This document shows positions 14,997 to 21,463 of a stretch of DNA of 64,000 nt, one piece after another; within the stretch, counting starts at the first letter, position 1; every line of letters starts with the position of its first letter. The DNA is from Pseudomonas sp. MM213. GTDB taxonomy: Bacteria > Pseudomonadota > Gammaproteobacteria > Pseudomonadales > Pseudomonadaceae. The position numbers were made by a program, and so were the translations under genes. The stretch is taken from assembly GCF_020423045.1 (NCBI RefSeq), contig NZ_CP081943.1, forward strand, positions 5,952,001 to 6,016,000, written 5' to 3'. The notes under the pieces were generated by a model. The model had not been told where the DNA came from and made no database searches. It was given only the letters and a program-made list of their open reading frames with translations.

Positions 14997-16031
14997 TTAG
15001 TTGTGAGCGTGCAGCGCTTCGTTCAGTTCGATCGCCGATTTGTGGGTTTTGCATTCCACGGCACCGGTTTCCGAATTGCGGCGGAACAGCAGGTCCGGCT
15101 GACCGGCCAGTTCACGAGCCTTCACAACTTTGACCAGCTTGTTGTTTTCGTCCAGCAGCGCCACTTTGGTGCCGGCAGTCACGTACAGGCCCGATTCAAC
15201 GGTGTTGCGGTCGCCCAACGGGATACCGATACCGGCGTTCGCGCCGATCAGGCAGCCTTCGCCAACCTTGATCACGATGTTGCCGCCGCCCGACAGGGTG
15301 CCCATGGTCGAGCAACCGCCGCCCAGGTCCGAACCCTTGCCGACGAACACGCCAGCGGAAACGCGGCCTTCGATCATGCCCGGGCCTTCGGTACCGGCGT
15401 TGAAGTTGACGAAACCTTCGTGCATCACGGTGGTGCCTTCGCCGACGTAAGCGCCCAGACGGATACGGGCGGCATCAGCGATACGCACGCCGGCCGGCAC
15501 GACGTAGTCGGTCATTTTCGGGAATTTGTCTACCGAGAACACTTCCAGCAGCTCGCCGCGCAGACGGGCTTCCAGTTGATGTTCGGCCAGTTCGGCGAGG
15601 TCAATCGCGCCCTGGCTGGTCCATGCGACGTTCGGCAGCAGCGGGAACACGCCGGCCAGGTTCAGGCCGTGCGGCTTGACCAGACGATGGGACAGCAGGT
15701 GCAGCTTGAGGTAAGCCTCAGGCGTGGAAGTCAGCGGTGCATCTTCGGCCAGAATGGTGGCGACCAGCGGCTTGTGGCTTTCGGCCAGACGGGTCAGCAG
15801 GGCGGCCTGGGCTGCGTCGACACCTTTCAGTGCTTCAGCCAGTTGCGAAGCCTGGGCGGTGCTGAACGCGATGGCCTGATTGCCTTCGGTGTAACCCAGA
15901 ACCGGCGCGATGGCCGCGACCAGATCGGCCGACGGGTTGAGCAGCGGCTGAGCGTAAAACACTTCGAGCCATGCGCCCTGACGATTTTGAGTGCCGACAC
16001 CAAAGGCCAGGCTGAATACGGAAGTGGACAT
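14997..16031 (-). CDS. dapD: Tetrahydrodipicolinate N-succinyltransferase
   Basis: 344 residues, the Pseudomonas length. It succinylates tetrahydrodipicolinate, the step before DapC and DapE in the lysine/DAP branch. The C-terminal half is a left-handed beta-helix made of hexapeptide repeats, seen in RIADAARIRLGAYVGEGT and GKGSDLGGGCSTMGTLSGG. It lies 33 bp downstream of yffB on the same strand and is probably cotranscribed with it. Because the island split the yffB 5' end from its original promoter, transcription of this gene (essential in most bacteria) may now start in or pass through the island. Confidence 0.96.
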   Translation of the reverse strand: MSTSVFSLAFGVGTQNRQGAWLEVFYAQPLLNPSADLVAAIAPVLGYTEGNQAIAFSTAQASQLAEALKGVDAAQAALLTRLAESHKPLVATILAEDAPLTSTPEAYLKLHLLSHRLVKPHGLNLAGVFPLLPNVAWTSQGAIDLAELAEHQLEARLRGELLEVFSVDKFPKMTDYVVPAGVRIADAARIRLGAYVGEGTTVMHEGFVNFNAGTEGPGMIEGRVSAGVFVGKGSDLGGGCSTMGTLSGGGNIVIKVGEGCLIGANAGIGIPLGDRNTVESGLYVTAGTKVALLDENNKLVKVVKARELAGQPDLLFRRNSETGAVECKTHKSAIELNEALHAHN

Positions 16032-16064: not shown

Positions 16065-16427
16065 TTACTTGAGCGCTGCCGCGTAGATATCTGGCTTGAA
16101 GCCAATCAGGGTTCGGTCACCGAGATCGAGCACCGGGCGCTTGATCATCGAGGGTTGTGCGAGCATCAGTTCGATGGCTTTCGGCTGGTCGAGATCGGCT
16201 TTGCGTTCGTCGTCGAGCTTGCGAAAGGTCGTGCCTGCACGGTTCAACACCACTTGCCAGCCGTGCTCGTCGCACCATTGGCTCAGGTGTTCGCGGTCGA
16301 TTCCGACCGCTTTGTAATCATGAAAGTCATAGCTGACAGCGTGTTCATCGAGCCAGGTGCGCGCCTTTTTCATGGTGTCGCAGGCTTTGATGCCGAAAAG
16401 CTGTAAGTGCTTGTTTTCATTGGGCAT
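16065..16427 (-). CDS. yffB: ArsC/Spx-family reductase YffB, chimeric N-terminus
   Basis: 120 residues with an ArsC-like thioredoxin fold. The single redox Cys16 is in GIKACDTMKKA. YffB proteins are probable glutathione-dependent thiol reductases of unknown substrate. The first nine codons (MPNENKHLQ) and the ribosome site (GGGGAAG on the minus strand) lie on the island side of attL, so the present start region is mobile-element DNA. The native start region survives at 21121-21176 and would read LTDSSKTLHLFGIKACDT. Reading frame and length are kept by the swap. dapD follows 33 bp downstream. Confidence 0.88.
   Translation of the reverse strand: MPNENKHLQLFGIKACDTMKKARTWLDEHAVSYDFHDYKAVGIDREHLSQWCDEHGWQVVLNRAGTTFRKLDDERKADLDQPKAIELMLAQPSMIKRPVLDLGDRTLIGFKPDIYAAALK
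16372..16400. repeat. attL: 29-bp direct repeat within yffB
   Basis: 29 bp, starting ATGGTGTCGCAGG and ending GCCGAAAAG, repeated without mismatch at 21121-21149 in the same orientation. It corresponds to yffB codons LFGIKACDTM. This is the expected product of site-specific integration by a tyrosine recombinase. Confidence 0.9.
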
Positions 16428-16433
16428 AAATTC

Positions 16434-16466
16434 TTCCCCAAAACTTCCCCAATACCGCCCAAAAAT
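16434..16466. repeat. Three 11-bp tandem repeats next to attL (candidate integrase arm sites)
   Basis: TTCCCCAAAAC, TTCCCCAATAC and a looser CGCCCAAAAAT follow each other at 11-bp spacing, about one DNA turn. A related TCCCCCAAAATG lies at 21000-21011 near attR. The first repeat, read on the minus strand, gives GGGGAA and serves as the Shine-Dalgarno of the chimeric yffB. The arm-site role is inferred. Confidence 0.5.
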
Positions 16467-16477
16467 TCAGCCGTCAA

Positions 16478-16725
16478 TTATGCCACGTCGATCCATTCTG
16501 CGCCTCGACTGTCGCGGTACAGATCGGTCATTGTGGCCGAACGGTGACCGAGCAGTTTCTGGGCATCGCGGCCTTCGACTTCGTGCAGACGTGCGGCAAG
16601 CCGAACACGCGACCACTGATCGGGTCGCGGTACGTGTAGTAAGTGACGCCATTGCGGGCGTCGGTCTTGCGGTAGAGATTGGGCGGAAGATCCTTTGACC
16701 CGGTATTACGCGGCCTGGGCGCCAT
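16478..16725 (-). pseudogene. Tyrosine recombinase (phage integrase), internally deleted
   Basis: The N-terminal arm-binding part (MAPRPRNTGSKDLPPNLYRK ... YTYRDPISGRVFGL) reads from 16725 to about 16597. It then joins, in another frame, the extreme C-terminus, LAARLHEVEGRDAQKLLGH...MTDLYRDSRGAEWIDVA, ending at the stop 16478-16480. The C-terminal His and the Tyr nucleophile (DLYRD) remain. The core-binding domain and most of the catalytic domain, including the Arg residues, are gone. Intact relatives are roughly 350-400 residues. The 5' end overlaps xis by 20 bp, a usual xis-int arrangement. Confidence 0.85.
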
Positions 16726-16948
16726 TGCGTGCTCTCTGTATTCTGCTAATCAGGCTGCCTCCGACAATCCGGACGGGCTGCTGGCCAGGGTTTTGGTAGT
16801 GGGCGTCGGACTCTACATAGTAGTTGCGCCCGTGCTTGACCGGTACCGGAGCGATCCGGCCCTCTCGCGCCCATTTACGCAGGGTGTTGGGGCTGGGCGG
16901 GGTCTTGAACACGGCCACCGCCCATTCGTCTAGGGTTACTTTGCTCAT
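16706..16948 (-). CDS. Phage excisionase (Xis)
   Basis: 80 residues from MSKVTLDEW; the frame extends upstream without family similarity. A winged-helix excisionase of the lambdoid type is indicated by LDEWAVAVF...PSPNTLRKWAREGRIAPVPVKHGRNYYVESDA, the segment that reads DNA and directs integrase to excise. It ends in an Arg/Ala-rich tail and overlaps the 5' end of the integrase relic. It looks intact, so it outlived its recombinase and may still bind the att region. Confidence 0.8.
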   Translation of the reverse strand: MSKVTLDEWAVAVFKTPPSPNTLRKWAREGRIAPVPVKHGRNYYVESDAHYQNPGQQPVRIVGGSLISRIQRARNGAQAA

Positions 16949-17031
16949 GAATACTCCATGCCGCGCGTGGCGGCAGAAGGTGGTTATTGGGCGAATTTGG
17001 CGAGCGCGGCGTCTGCGACCTTCATCGCGGC

Positions 17032-17960
17032 CTAGGCTTCGGTGGCATAGGCAGGATCGAATCCTCCGCACAGGTGGATGGTTGCTTGGCAGGCCCGGAG
17101 GTTTTCGCGAGTGAGCTTCAGCGCTGCGACGAGCTCTTCGCACGGCGCACGTTCTTCCCGGCCGATGTCCCAGAAGCGCTGACCCCAGTGCCCTGCCGGT
17201 GGCGGGTTACGGTTTTGCACGCCGAATGTCATCGCTCCCACGGCTGAATCGAGCAAGTCGCGCTTGTAGGCGTTGTCACCGTCGATGCTCAGGCCGCGCC
17301 GGCGAAGAGTTGAAACCACCTCATTGAGGTCAAGGCTTTTGTCCTGCAGGACAATGTCGAGCTCTGGTTTTTCAGGTGTGTAGATAGCCAAACAGATTTT
17401 TGCGCCGGGCGGCAGGCTGGCGCTGATCTTCTCCAGCGCCAGCCTGCGGTTTTGTGAAAACGGTTTAATGCAGACATGCGGATTCCTCGCCTGCCGTTCA
17501 TCAGCAGGCTGGTAGGTGGAAGAGGGGGAGTCGCCACAGAAGCAGTCGATGTCTTCGACGAGATAGTCGAAATCGAAATCGGTTTGTCGGGAGCGCTGTT
17601 CGGCTGACCAGCCCAGCGTTTTGTAATCGGCGCGATCCTGTCGGAACACCTGGCCGAAGCGCTCTTCAGTGCCGGACCACCAGATGACCCGAGTGGGGTC
17701 TTCCATAATTGTTTTCAGCAACTTGCCTTCGTTCTTCTTCCAGCACAGGTCGCAGTTTCCGAAATCAGAGCTCATGCCCAGATCGAAAGGCTGATCCTTC
17801 CAGAAGGTGGCGACATATTCATTGGTGATGCCTGCGGTGTACGAGGGGCAGAGGTTGTCCCAGCGGGTGCCGCCTCGATCATTGGCGGCCATCATGCGGT
17901 GATAACGTTTCGGCTCGTCGTAGCGGATACCGACGACACAGTCCCATTCGGTATAGAGAG
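17032..17960 (-). pseudogene. PAPS-reductase-like phage gene fused to a second phage segment, 5' truncated
   Basis: From about 17960 leftwards the frame reads TEWDCVVGIRYDEPKRYH, then FWKDQPFDLGM...FGNCDLCWKK and DIDCFCGD. These are the C-terminal half of phage phosphoadenosine-phosphosulfate-reductase-like proteins with a Cys pair. The N-terminal nucleotide-binding half is missing. The frame continues past the usual CFCGD end into a further segment (MTFGVQNRNPPPAGHWGQRFWDIG ... CGGFDPAYATEA) that looks like a separate phage protein. The open frame also extends upstream to 18330, but that part is the antisense of a structural gene. Family recognition is from memory. Confidence 0.55.
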
Positions 17961-17964
17961 AGGC

Positions 17965-18351
17965 GTAACCAAGCCTCGGTTCGCTGAATTCATCGACCCG
18001 GAAAGCGGTATCCGCGCCATAGCGAAGCTGATCCTGGCTTACCGTGGCAAAGACGGCATGCCAGGCATTGGCGGGAGCGGCATCGATACGGTGCGGGAGG
18101 TAATCAACCGTTGGGCGCCTGGCGTCGAAAACGACACCGAGTCGTACATCAAGGCTGTTGCTTCGCGCGTAGGGACCGAGGCCAATCAGACGATTGATCT
18201 TCGTAACTTCCGCACCCTGATCGCGCTGACTACTGGAATCATCCCGCACGAAAACGGGTCTGTTCCCTACGCTGCTTCCGTCATCGCCGAGGGGGGCAGA
18301 GAGCGTTGGCTTGATATGCTCGATTCTCACGGCGCTGAACTCAATGGCTGA
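17965..18351 (+). pseudogene. Phage structural protein, C-terminal remnant
   Basis: Plus-strand reading RFAEFIDPESGIRAIAKLIL...VREVINRWAPGVENDT...SYIKAVASRVG...FRTLIALTTGIIPHENG resembles phage structural/virion-associated proteins with a 'GIRAxAKLL ... INRWAPPxEN' pattern. The 5' part is lost: sequence left of about 17965 is the antisense of the PAPS-reductase-like remnant. The two genes are therefore joined head to head at a deletion junction between about 17955 and 17985. The last 25 bp overlap the convergent acyltransferase end. Confidence 0.55.
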
Positions 18352-19355
18352 TGCGCCTTAACCGGTCGCGTCACTTTTTTTGCGTATGTCAGGATTGGTC
18401 TTTCTACCAAATAAAAACTAAGGCTCGATACGACTACAATCAGGGACACGGCTAATGCAAGAGTAAGTGTGCCGCTCATATCAAATGCCACCTTAAGAAT
18501 TGCTACGTAGCAAATAACAATTACATGGCAGAGGTATGTCGAGTAGGACCAGTCGGCCAAACGGTTGAATAAACCAGCGTGCCTGAACAGCTTTTCCTGA
18601 GCTAGGAACGAAAAAACTATAACGGCGCAGGGGATGCCCTGCTTCCACGGACTGTGGGTCACCTCTCCGTAGTGTGAGATTGTCAGCAAAGATAAAATAA
18701 TCCCAATCGCTGAGGCGTAGGTCGGCACCCGGCTTGTGATATTCCGCTGGTGCAATATGGCTATCATGATGCCGAACAGGAATTCATACATGATGCTGTT
18801 GTTGTAAAAAGAAAGATCACCCCCTACCAATTGTGATGCTTTGTTAAGCACAATAATGCCTGCCACTATAGCTAGTGCCCTAGCTCTCGATGGAAGGAAC
18901 AGACATAGAAGGAATATAAGATAGAAGACCATTTCAAAGTTAAGTGTCCATCCGACAGTTACTAGTGGGAATAGACCTATCCCAGATGGGTTTTGCGCTG
19001 GTATGAAGAATAGGCTTTTTAACATAAAGGCCGAATCATATGTCGTTGACATTATTGAGTTCGGTATTGCCAATAGCGATACAGCAGTGATTATGGTGAA
19101 AAACCAATACACTGGCGCGATCCTCGCTATCCTGTGTATGGCAAAGTTTTTTGGTGATAGATTTTGTGCTTGGGTGGAGGTGTAAATTACAAATCCGCTA
19201 ATTATAAAGAATATATCTACGCCGATTGCTCCATATCTAAATAAAAACACAGATATAGGGTCTTGCAGTTTGAAGTTGTACACAACCTGCATGTAATGAT
19301 GGAATACCACCAGCCATGCAGCAAAAGCTCTTAACGTTTGAATCGAATTGAGCAT
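18327..19355 (-). CDS. Membrane acyltransferase, Acyltransferase-3 family (OafA-like)
   Basis: 342 residues with about ten hydrophobic segments. It has the family R-X10-H motif (Arg9 to His20 in LRAFAAWLVVFHH) and the GVDIFFIISGFVI segment. Such enzymes transfer acetyl or other acyl groups to surface polysaccharides, and phages carry them for O-antigen seroconversion. The coding sequence is visibly AT-rich with codon use unlike its neighbours, indicating recent transfer. It is full length and appears intact among degraded genes. The acyl donor and target cannot be read from sequence. Confidence 0.82.
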   Translation of the reverse strand: MLNSIQTLRAFAAWLVVFHHYMQVVYNFKLQDPISVFLFRYGAIGVDIFFIISGFVIYTSTQAQNLSPKNFAIHRIARIAPVYWFFTIITAVSLLAIPNSIMSTTYDSAFMLKSLFFIPAQNPSGIGLFPLVTVGWTLNFEMVFYLIFLLCLFLPSRARALAIVAGIIVLNKASQLVGGDLSFYNNSIMYEFLFGIMIAILHQRNITSRVPTYASAIGIILSLLTISHYGEVTHSPWKQGIPCAVIVFSFLAQEKLFRHAGLFNRLADWSYSTYLCHVIVICYVAILKVAFDMSGTLTLALAVSLIVVVSSLSFYLVERPILTYAKKVTRPVKAHQPLSSAP

Positions 19356-19357
19356 GA

Positions 19358-20176
19358 TTAATTCTTAATGATAGATTTTTGTGGGGCGGTGATTGTCGTT
19401 GATTTTTCGAATTCAGCAAAGCCTGGAAGTATTCTGTTCGGGCAGTTCGGGTCCTCAATGAAGCCGCGACCCGAGCATGCTGTGCAATCCTCGAACAGGT
19501 CGAACCGATCGCAGCACGACAGGCACAGGGTGAAAATGGAAAACAGTTCCTTTTCCCGTAACGCCACGAAGGTCGGCATGTCGCCTGACTCAAGCGCTAG
19601 AATCGAAGCGTCCAGCAGCGCGCGGTAGACATCCGGATCATCCAGTCGTTGGCGTATCCCATCTTCGAAGTTCCGATTCCTTTCTACAATGGCCAGCTTC
19701 TGCCCCGTCTCGGTGTAGATGTAGATGTAGATGTAGATGTAGATGTAGATGTAGATGTAGCGGTCGCGGATCACGCCGTAGTTCTGATAGGCCGCCGTTC
19801 TGATGCGGCGTTCAGGGTCGTCACGGCTGAACTGCGCGAAGAAGTGGCTCGGCCCGAAGTTCTTTTCTGGTGTGCCGAGAAAATACCGGTTCCCGTTGAT
19901 GTAGCCGACGAAGCTGGCAGCCTGGTTGTAGACGTCGTAGTCAGAGGCTGGGTGCATCCACTCCTGTGGATACTCCCCGGCGAAATGACAGTAGGCACCG
20001 GTCAGCAGTTCGACGAGCTCGAAACGTTCAAAGGCATCGATCATGCCGACGCACAGCATGTAGTAGGCGGAGCTCATCAAGCAGCTGTACTGGCTGCTCT
20101 GGTTCTTCCAGTCCTCATGGTTGTTCAGCCGTTTGTGCCACTCGGCCAACATTTCATCTCGGGTGTGTACAGGCAT
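19358..20176 (-). CDS. Unknown phage-island protein with (Tyr-Ile)n repeat
   Basis: 272 residues if started at MPVHTRDEML. An alternative start at 20203 (MSKQYLSLT) adds nine residues, and the frame stays open to 20374. The N-terminal half is helical (SSAYYMLCVGMIDAFERFELVELLTG). A hexanucleotide tandem repeat then encodes alternating Tyr-Ile. The C-terminal part carries LCLSCCDRFDLFEDCTACSGRGF, two CxxC-like pairs that could bind zinc. No family recognised. It ends 2 bp before the acyltransferase start, so the two are probably cotranscribed. Confidence 0.65.
   Translation of the reverse strand: MPVHTRDEMLAEWHKRLNNHEDWKNQSSQYSCLMSSAYYMLCVGMIDAFERFELVELLTGAYCHFAGEYPQEWMHPASDYDVYNQAASFVGYINGNRYFLGTPEKNFGPSHFFAQFSRDDPERRIRTAAYQNYGVIRDRYIYIYIYIYIYIYIYTETGQKLAIVERNRNFEDGIRQRLDDPDVYRALLDASILALESGDMPTFVALREKELFSIFTLCLSCCDRFDLFEDCTACSGRGFIEDPNCPNRILPGFAEFEKSTTITAPQKSIIKN
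19715..19760. repeat. Hexanucleotide microsatellite GTAGAT x ~7.7
   Basis: Seven perfect GTAGAT units and a partial eighth (46 bp). On the minus strand it reads in frame as ATCTAC and encodes Tyr-(Ile-Tyr)7. Unit gain or loss would change the protein by two residues without a frameshift. Confidence 0.95.
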
Positions 20177-20393
20177 GGTCAAGCTCAAATACTGTTTGGA
20201 CATACGGCAATCGAGAAAGCCGTTCGAAGACCAGTCAGGATGACGAATTGCGTAATAGGGAGAGGGTGAACGTCGGCAGAACGCCGTAGATGGATGTTGC
20301 TGAAAAGTCGCTGAAGGCAGCATGGATTCACATGAGTCCACAGCAACCTCCAACAACTTACCACTCAGAAACACCGGGTTTCATTGGGTCAAA

Positions 20394-20427
20394 TGGTGGG
20401 GGCTGGGAGGGATTTGAACCGCCGTCC
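20394..20427 (-). other. tRNA-like 3' fragment (T-arm, acceptor strand, CCA)
   Basis: The minus strand reads GGCGGTTCAAATCC (T-stem and TTCAAAT loop) followed by CTCCCAGCCCCCACCA, like the 3' third of a tRNA. No matching 5' acceptor strand (GGGGGCT) occurs within about 130 bp upstream. The T-stem has a mismatch and the spacing to ACCA is two bases too long. It is probably a degraded phage tRNA or an attachment-site remnant. Confidence 0.45.
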
Positions 20428-20451
20428 TGCCCGTTTGGTGCGGATAGCGTT

Positions 20452-20835
20452 TTATTGGCGTACCGCTGCAGCGACATTTTCTGGAGCGTCGACGACATCA
20501 CCCAGCTTTTCGCGAACTATTGCACGACACACTGCAATCGGTGCCGTCGATCCGCAAGACTCTTCATCGAAGCTTGAGCTGTAATTGGGAGTGCCATCCG
20601 CAGAGGCTGCCCACTTGGCGGCCTGGTAAATTCCAAGTCGAAACCTCTCAAGCAGTGGCCCGCATTGAAACCAATTCGTGGATGGCCCCCACCCATAGAC
20701 GCCCCCAACATTCTCGCCTTCATACCAAGTCCCGCAGATATCGTCGGAAACGTCAGTCGGGGAACAATTGAATGCGGCCTTTGCCACAGCCCAATCCAGT
20801 GCGGGTCCTATTACATCTGAGACCTGTAACTTCAC
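20452..20835 (-). CDS. NinX-like phage protein (DUF2591)
   Basis: 127 residues with a GTG start. It matches the lambdoid NinX/DUF2591 pattern: N-terminal GPALDWAVAKA, central PSTNWFQCGPLLERF, and C-terminal AVCRAIVREKLGDVVDAPENV. The function of NinX is unknown; in phages it lies in the nin region of early genes. The gene looks complete. Family assignment is from memory of the motif order. Confidence 0.65.
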   Translation of the reverse strand: MKLQVSDVIGPALDWAVAKAAFNCSPTDVSDDICGTWYEGENVGGVYGWGPSTNWFQCGPLLERFRLGIYQAAKWAASADGTPNYSSSFDEESCGSTAPIAVCRAIVREKLGDVVDAPENVAAAVRQ

Positions 20836-20999
20836 TACGACCTCTCCAAGTCGGTGCCATGCGCGCTCAACGTGACCTAAGACTTATGGTCTTGACTCGC
20901 AAAAATGAGCGCGGCGGAAATGTGATCAATATTCAGAAATTAAGGCGCGTCTGGCATACACCAGCAAATCCGCACATCGTTGTTTAAGGCGGAAAAATC

Positions 21000-21082
21000 T
21001 CCCCCAAAATGCAACCACAAGCATTTGATTTTATTGGCGTCACAAGGGGGGGTTGGGGCGGGGGTTTTAGGGGGATTTTGCA
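21000..21082. other. G-tract cluster and TCCCCCAAAA motif beside attR
   Basis: The motif TCCCCCAAAATGCA starts at 21000. G-runs follow on the plus strand: G7 (21046-21052), G4 (21055-21058), G5 (21060-21064) and G5 (21070-21074), with loops of 2, 1 and 5 bases. This fits a classical four-tract G-quadruplex. The surrounding 20836-21120 holds no gene that I can see and is probably the recombination arm region of the island. Confidence 0.6.
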
Positions 21083-21120
21083 CCTATCGTATTGATGCAA
21101 AAGGGTTTTAATCAATGCTT

Positions 21121-21149
21121 ATGGTGTCGCAGGCTTTGATGCCGAAAAG
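21121..21149. repeat. attR: 29-bp direct repeat
   Basis: Perfect copy of 16372-16400 in the same orientation. It marks the right boundary of the island and begins the displaced native 5' end of yffB. Confidence 0.9.
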
Positions 21150-21176
21150 GTGCAACGTTTTGCTTGAATCGGTCAA
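21121..21176 (-). pseudogene. yffB: Displaced native 5' end of yffB
   Basis: On the minus strand a TTG start at 21174-21176 reads LTDSSKTLHLFGIKACDT, in frame with the yffB protein through the att core. A GGGGG Shine-Dalgarno lies about 7 bp upstream of the TTG. This is what yffB's N-terminus would have been before integration. It is now cut off from the rest of the gene by 4.7 kb. Confidence 0.8.
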
Positions 21177-21253
21177 GGAATTGCCCCCTTTACAGGTGCT
21201 GGAAAAAAAGGTGACGGATTATGCCATGACCGTCCGGTTAAAACGCAAAACCC

Positions 21254-21345
21254 TGTAGGAGCCGAGCTTGCTCGCGAAAGCGGCAGGTCAGCCACTATCA
21301 ATGTTGAATGTCAGGCCGCTTTCGCGAGCAAGCTCGGCTCCTGCA
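21254..21345. repeat. REP pair between island and antiporter
   Basis: Inverted arms TGTAGGAGCCGAGCTTGCTCGCG and CGCGAGCAAGCTCGGCTCCTGCA. Apart from this repeat, 21177-21463 shows only the presumed native yffB promoter region (minus strand) and the antiporter leader. Confidence 0.88.
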
Positions 21346-21463
21346 GGGTTTGGGGTTTTTTCGAGGCTGGCGACAGCCTGCGACATTGGTACAACGGTCA
21401 ACCCGCAGTCTAAGCGGCTAATATGGCACTTCAATGCTGTCGATTGTCCGGGAACCGCGCTTT

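Follow-up and report, generated by a model that had tools for sequence, protein, structure and literature searches.

The integration site described here is already known from the prophage pp3, and the principle that an integrating element may take over the front of a host gene is known from pp3, the dusA islands, and HK022 at torS. We compared these systems with an element that occupies the 5' end of yffB in Pseudomonas sp. MM213 (contig NZ_CP081943.1, positions 5,952,001 to 6,016,000). The window is this whole 64,000-nucleotide (nt) stretch, and its own numbering is used throughout. Integrase-dependent excision, circularization, transfer, and integration were demonstrated for pp3 of P. aeruginosa PA1 (Li 2017, PMC5367828), and pp3 and its relatives (LES prophage 3, phi2, and LPPA33) share the same target, namely, the 5' end of an ArsC-family gene (PMC5367828). 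The 26-bp attachment (att) sequence given for pp3 (PMC5367828) is the reverse complement of a stretch of the LESphi3 core. For pp3, the predicted -10 is the same with and without the prophage and the protein is unchanged (MTYVLY...; PMC5367828), whereas the elements of the fluorescens-group integrase clade considered here (clade A) replace residues 1 to 9 and change the start codon from TTG to ATG and thus do not leave their target unchanged. The accessible part of that account does not mention an overlap with the integrase stop codon, arm or integration host factor (IHF) sites, a mini-open reading frame (mini-ORF) in the phage site attP, or scars.

The dusA islands swap the 5' end of their target gene for their own sequence, which includes putative promoters (Farrugia 2015, PMC4482086). 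They resemble the element in the window in that a housekeeping gene has its 5' end replaced, together with the first beta strand, and in that a putative promoter is present before and after the swap (PMC4482086). They differ in integrase family and in target (yffB here, not dusA or dusB), and the accessible part of their description includes neither a promoter/stop overlap nor genus-wide scars (PMC4482086). In HK022, a mapped promoter inside the phage near attL drives torS (Carey 2019, PMC6814406). The likeness lies in a phage promoter that drives the adjacent host gene and in the position of int, which no other gene separates from the target and which lies 73 bp from the junction; however, in the accessible part of that account torS keeps its own coding sequence, its expression rises, and no clear -10/-35 is present (PMC6814406).

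The element in the window is also similar to lambda: its putative attP sites come in the same order, relatives of its integrase contain the Pfam lambda arm domain, and the HK97 and 434 integrases are approximately 40% identical. The lambda attP is arranged as core, IHF site H', arm sites P'1 to P'3, and int. The lambda P' arm is not known to code for a host protein. Replacement of the yffB N terminus and start codon, an overlap of a -10 with the integrase stop, an attP mini-ORF, and retained scars were not found in the open-licence PubMed Central literature, where absence is no proof.

We consider it very likely that the element is the remnant of a lambda-type phage whose attP is a ready-made yffB front that is kept as a scar after the phage decays. 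Such a temperate phage would integrate at yffB codons 10 to 16. Its attP, downstream of int, would hold a -10 box (at the int end), a Shine-Dalgarno sequence within an arm-like site, and an ATG followed in frame by an N terminus for which an IHF-like site codes in part. Before integration, this front would be a short ORF ending just past the core. Recombination would fuse the front in frame to yffB, leaving yffB and the downstream dapD expressible, and would shift the TTG start, with its ribosome site and the native promoter region, to the far end of the prophage. The prophage would then decay, and its front end would remain. That a complete front makes integration cheap, and that it stays when the phage goes, is the best-supported account of the data below.

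The two fronts of yffB in the window

In the window, yffB lies at 16065 to 16427 on the minus strand and encodes a protein of the ArsC/Spx-like family (Pfam PF03960 [ArsC], E = 2.7e-21; best match among solved structures, 1rw1 YffB, E = 5.4e-64). It is followed after 33 bp, as had been claimed, by an ORF at 14997 to 16031 (minus strand), which is presumably dapD. Two copies of a 29-bp direct repeat, at 16372 to 16400 (attL core, in yffB codons 10 to 19) and 21121 to 21149 (attR core), both on the minus strand, match exactly over their full length and bound a 4.7-kb island (16372 to 21149). On the attL side, yffB opens with an ATG and reads MPNENKHLQ (16401 to 16427, minus strand) followed by LFGIKACDTM, with GGGGAAG at 16433 to 16439. 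Beyond attR, the minus strand reads TTG-LTDSSKTLH (21150 to 21176) and then LFGIKACDTISID-stop, with a native Shine-Dalgarno GGGGG at 21184 to 21188 (minus strand). The repeat inside yffB and both ends, each with its start codon and ribosome site, are thus as described in the original prediction, which proposed that the island swaps the 5' end of yffB in frame and changes TTG to ATG.

Two properties of this DNA had been missed. The same TGGCATAAT precedes both starts, and the new gene front is the same DNA as the integrase 3' end, several arm-like sites, and an IHF-like site. The native TGGCATAAT (21218 to 21226, minus strand), a putative -10, lies approximately 42 nt before TTG, and its repeat on the phage side (16477 to 16485, minus strand; approximately 50 nt before ATG) consists of the last integrase codons, the stop, and the next base. 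The phage copy equals the native one, and we take it as a putative extended -10. Between it and the start are three arm-like repeats on the minus strand that would bind Int: P'3 (TTTTTGGGCGG, degenerate; 16455 to 16465), P'2 (TATTGGGGAAG; 16444 to 16454), and P'1 (TTTTGGGGAAG; 16433 to 16443), the one nearest the ATG, which contains the Shine-Dalgarno of the new start. A candidate IHF site, AAACAAGCACTTA (16404 to 16416, minus strand), encodes residues 4 to 8; it has one mismatch to WATCAANNNNTTR, whereas most relatives are perfect.

Empty sites, lysogens, and putative free attP

We ranked 413 relatives by similarity to the window YffB and examined the best 80, which are named Pseudomonas loci. 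The native TTG end was present in 68 and the phage ATG end in 12, and CATAAT occurred upstream of yffB in all 80. The 27 nt displaced at attR recur unchanged at the start of yffB in three of these loci (L011, L068, and L078), which excludes chance. A TTG start is credible because 45 of 63 homologous native ends use it (GTG, 12; ATG, 6). The proposed comparison with empty sites therefore bore out the swap: where the phage end is missing, yffB begins with the TTG end, and lysogens retain this end elsewhere, as follows.

The MPNE-type end was found in 18 genomes of a 398-genome genus sample, compared with none for a reversed-pattern control. Six of the 18 also contained the displaced native end, located 4.7 kb from attL in the window and at 41.3, 41.6, 42.8, 50.6, and 56.8 kb in the five others, with a TTG start and CATAAT upstream in every case. 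In these five long, intact lysogens, the core at the displaced end continues into GGGATGC.GCATA, which is the right side of the free attP; the junction of the displaced TTG end with attP DNA fits the prediction for site-specific integration. Of 298 genomes, 10 carry an intact integrase gene; there are 11 copies, all but one of which lie approximately 90 bp from the yffB core. A probe for the P. aeruginosa native end had a single match among the 398 genomes, which reads MSYVLY.

Relatives of the integrase are encoded at 78 loci of viral contigs, and the two intact relatives that were scanned have a lambda-type arm-binding domain at the N terminus and a tyrosine recombinase catalytic domain (for the first, PF09003, E = 2.5e-25, and PF00589, E = 1.7e-14). 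Six contigs read as unintegrated attP, with int, arm-like repeats 11 bp apart, an ATG, and a mini-ORF, MPNEIKHLQLYGIKAWDAA-stop, whose stop falls directly past the core (variants in L099 and L113; the L112 and L158 sequences are the same). Each of the six has arm-like repeats at -61 and -50; another, at -72, occurs in L102 and L105 only, and one at +136 is present in all five contigs that are long enough. These arm-like repeats and a candidate IHF site matching the consensus have fixed places in attP relatives. On recombination, the predicted mini-ORF becomes the YffB front.

A second integrase clade (P. aeruginosa phages phi2, LESphi3, and LPPA33) is 69% identical to clade A. Its attP encodes MTYVLYGIKAWDAR-stop (L122 and LPPA33), and the LPPA33 arrangement matches that of the clade A attP. 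The target core at the yffB 5' end, ...GGCATCAAAGCCTG, places the element among the yffB-site phages of the pp3/LES prophage 3 kind. In nine distinct relatives, the integrase precedes a response-regulator-like frame instead; similar repeats are kept, and the IHF-like site is perfect in six of the nine. At these loci (L144, L145, L153, L437, L440 to L443, and L445), int is followed by the frame DCNMPIMNGYELTR, and in L144 and L145, a truncated response-regulator-like frame is opened by an ATG. L104 is a clade A phage at another site (core, GGCATCAAGGCGTGGGATACC), where the phage ATG opens a 186-codon frame.

Putative overlapping codes at the integrase 3' end

The last integrase codon, the stop, and the next base read GCATAAT in all 27 distinct yffB-type integrases, that is, the terminal alanine codon is GCA, the stop is TAA, and the base that follows is T, each without exception. 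This set includes four truncated attL rows added by eye (L085, L092, L141, and L215) and retains L104, which has a yffB-type attP. By comparison, none of the 20 other invariant alanine columns is confined to a single codon, and GCA accounts for 208 of 1,225 alanine codons. Of the 22 relatives whose downstream DNA differs, 3 have GCA as their final codon, 7 use TAA to terminate, and 1 has GCATAAT. The latter is L391; the 22 also include L093, which is followed by other DNA and reads GCATAAA, with an integrase 96% identical to clade A. Another 40 of the 89 distinct integrases have <60 nt past the stop and are unclassed; 32 of these 40 end in GCATAA. We read the GCATAAT bases as being held by a DNA function that matters on landing before yffB, and CATAAT would then be a working -10. 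The element supplies the start codon and N terminus of yffB, as read from the sequence, and this constraint suggests that it also supplies a promoter. A different candidate, TTGACG-N17-TATTGG after the int stop, was rejected as a conserved promoter, given that TTGACG varies between elements and CATAAT is constant.

The IHF consensus spans codons 4 to 8 in clade A and is perfect in 20 of the 27 yffB-type sequences and in 10 of the 22 other relatives. Because these other relatives have perfect sites too, the IHF-like site is probably older than its coding use.

Scars, rival explanations, and meaning

The island in the window is a decayed prophage and no longer a working element. Its integrase gene (16478 to 16725, minus strand) retains residues 1 to 43 and 328 to 367, with the middle deleted (Pfam Arm-DNA-bind_1, E = 9.9e-19; tblastn pieces); the island is only a prophage remnant. 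We classified the yffB N termini of 119 sampled genomes (118 fetched genomes plus the window). Phage-type fronts were present in 37, of which nine have an intact integrase, two have a broken one (the window and L277), and 26 have no integrase gene that could be found. We then compared the 42 nt upstream of CATAAT with integrase 3' ends, using 18,274 random 42-mers as the null (P values are per locus and uncorrected, and related loci are not independent). Resemblance to an integrase 3' end was detected in 23 of the 26 integrase-less loci at P < 0.001 and in 25 at P < 0.01, compared with 0 and 2, respectively, of 63 native-type ends and with 1 of 7 MSYVLY-type ends at P < 0.01. The values for the native-type ends do not favor reading the fluorescens-type TTG ends as integrase scars. 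With CATAAT masked, nhmmer detected L223, L220, and L298 at E < 1e-10 and L251, L305, and L250 at 0.007 to 0.02; most of the remaining integrase-less loci were weak or not found. CATAAT lies within 120 nt upstream of the core in all 36 fetched phage-type fronts.

According to the original prediction, islandless strains with the MPNENKHLQ end would speak against the swap. Such strains were indeed found: an MPNE-type end without an adjacent integrase gene is present in 14 of 30 listed rows, which amount to 10 distinct sequences. Yet 13 of the 14 have a decayed integrase 3' end upstream, and the last (L170) keeps the phage module from ACGTGGCATAAT onwards. We read these strains as scars of lost prophages, which removes their force as a refutation. 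In clade A scars, identity to the intact consensus is 0.60 for P'3, 0.74 for P'2, 0.84 for P'1 with the Shine-Dalgarno, and 0.93 for the start region (8 distinct scars versus 11 intact rows, which count two strains twice). A host tree of yffB plus dapD covered 73 rows: the window, 12 named rows, and 60 genomes out of the 119. It requires a minimum of 7 changes to account for the MPNE-type end, 13 when all phage-type ends are taken together, and 16 when five types are distinguished, each change being a gain or a loss. CATAAT is absent upstream in 12 of the 118 fetched loci. L292, which has an intact integrase, groups on the tree with the CATAAT-less L222 and L286, and the phage front would thus supply a promoter there where relatives show none. 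In L317 and L318, the dapC match stops 29 nt before the yffB core, approximately 10 nt before its start.

Several observations weigh against the proposed explanation. The GCATAAT signal, although strong, is not unique: a single codon is also found at nine further degenerate invariant columns, which brings the total to 10 of 172 (5 of 115 among the four- or sixfold ones), including GGC at column 362 and three columns near the int start, and the 27 yffB-type integrases are related and hence not independent. No sigma-70 promoter was detected at the two fronts by a consensus scan that depends on a -35, and no -35 is recognizable. CATAAT also occurs at 70 of the 82 other fetched yffB fronts, so its retention alone is no proof of phage origin. 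The displaced native end was not found at ≤3 mismatches in the other 12 of the 18 MPNE-type genomes; loss, divergence, or contig breaks may account for this, and divergence may apply to G026, which has an intact integrase. The host tree was built quickly, and 14 of its 66 inner branches are weak. The predicted anti-Shine-Dalgarno pairing of the window front (-5.5 kcal/mol) is weaker than that of the native one (-10.7 kcal/mol) and than the clade A median (-9.8 kcal/mol). Finally, the ATG of MTYTLY-type fronts lacks an adjacent Shine-Dalgarno (median, +0.4 kcal/mol), and the N terminus of these fronts resembles the MSYTLY of some hosts with dapC just upstream, so the peptide is hardly replaced in those hosts.

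Many MTYTLY/MAYTLY-type leaders (L180, L205, L240, L269, and others) contain a GGAG, a G-run/C-run hairpin, approximately 10 nt, and then the ATG. The hairpin could possibly bridge the distance from GGAG to ATG as a ribosome site. Folding of individual MTYTLY-type leaders gave a mean z of -0.98 (15 of 28 below -1), compared with -0.92 for eight MSYVLY-type leaders, a signal that is weak, not specific, and suggestive only.

The strongest rival is an ordinary choice of site, in which the core is conserved, the in-frame front merely preserves the gene and has no regulatory meaning, and CATAAT was captured from a host. The same TGGCATAAT in both fronts fits this explanation, as do the identical -10 and unchanged protein of pp3 with and without its prophage (PMC5367828) and the resemblance of one clade's phage N terminus (MTY[VT]LY) to that of the host (MSY[VT]LY). 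Clade A, however, alters nine residues and the start codon, and capture from the host leaves the overlap of GCATAAT with the last integrase codon and stop unexplained. Ordinary site choice is compatible with donation of a front and denies only that expression changes; we regard it as a serious contender whose chance falls a little short of even.

The original prediction went further and suggested that the swap may also reset the expression of dapD; on this view, ATG in place of TTG would raise YffB and DapD. The change of start codon is present in the window and in 12 of the 80 named loci, and ATG is the stronger start; however, the predicted Shine-Dalgarno pairing in the window drops by the values given above and the putative -10 is identical in both fronts. 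A reset of this kind is unlikely; with the same putative -10, a weaker Shine-Dalgarno, and a stronger start codon, the swap could shift expression either way. Convergent promoters, i.e., TGGCATAAT gained independently before yffB by many Pseudomonas, would suit the CATAAT of native-type ends (80 of 80 named loci) and the rarity of integrase similarity in those ends, but are highly improbable given that, in 23 of the 26 integrase-less phage-type loci, similarity to integrase codons extends across the 42 nt that precede CATAAT and that three loci are still detected when CATAAT is masked.

The remaining features of the locus are as follows. Next to the integrase remnant is an excisionase-like xis (16706 to 16948, minus strand; Pfam PF07825, E = 1.5e-28; PHROG 629), and the rest of the decayed prophage (16949 to 21120) comprises phage-like ORFs, an O-acetyltransferase, and a NinX-like ORF. 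One island ORF contains a TGTAGA hexamer repeat (19714 to 19760) that is translated as a YIYIYI stretch. A blastn search of the 109-nt window module against 50,697 phage records returned a single 24-nt match (E = 7e-3), which we judged to be due to chance. A 45-nt inverted repeat (21240 to 21359; 93% complementary) that looks like a repetitive extragenic palindromic element is intergenic and sits between the native yffB promoter region and a divergent Na/H exchanger gene. When L181, L192, L243, and L248 were set against fluorescens-type native ends, a similar native-type front of the form CATAATCC..CACC..GGGGCAA..TGACC..TTGCACCTTT was noted in L181, which belongs to another host clade on the tree; given L181, this front may itself have spread as a module.

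In P. aeruginosa, dapB and lysA mutants (dapD is not among them) require diaminopimelate or lysine, according to the accessible part of a published account (PMC12723192). Behind a phage front, dapD would depend on the phage-front promoter. Combining these elements, we tentatively advance a joint reading, on which we stand slightly on the doubtful side. Approximately one-third of Pseudomonas species would have phage DNA as the front of the yffB-dapD operon, the 73-row tree requiring no fewer than 13 switches from a phage-type end to another type or back, and this DNA would mostly have been kept after phage loss. The -10 would be a fossil of the last integrase codon and stop, the Shine-Dalgarno a fossil arm site, and the first codons an IHF-like site. 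A prophage would cut dapD from upstream promoters, so each integration would make the host depend on phage DNA for lysine and peptidoglycan precursors, and Int and IHF would sit on that promoter at excision.

One stretch of DNA would have several readings at once, namely, integrase tail and stop, putative promoter, arm-like sites, ribosome site, IHF-like site, and host N terminus, and these overlapping readings come with evidence of nucleotide-level selection. The locus also offers a countable case of phage DNA turned into the lasting front of a core operon, for which the available material runs from empty sites and lysogens to partial remnants and scars. For annotation, it is a warning that the start codon of a core gene can be set by a phage scar.

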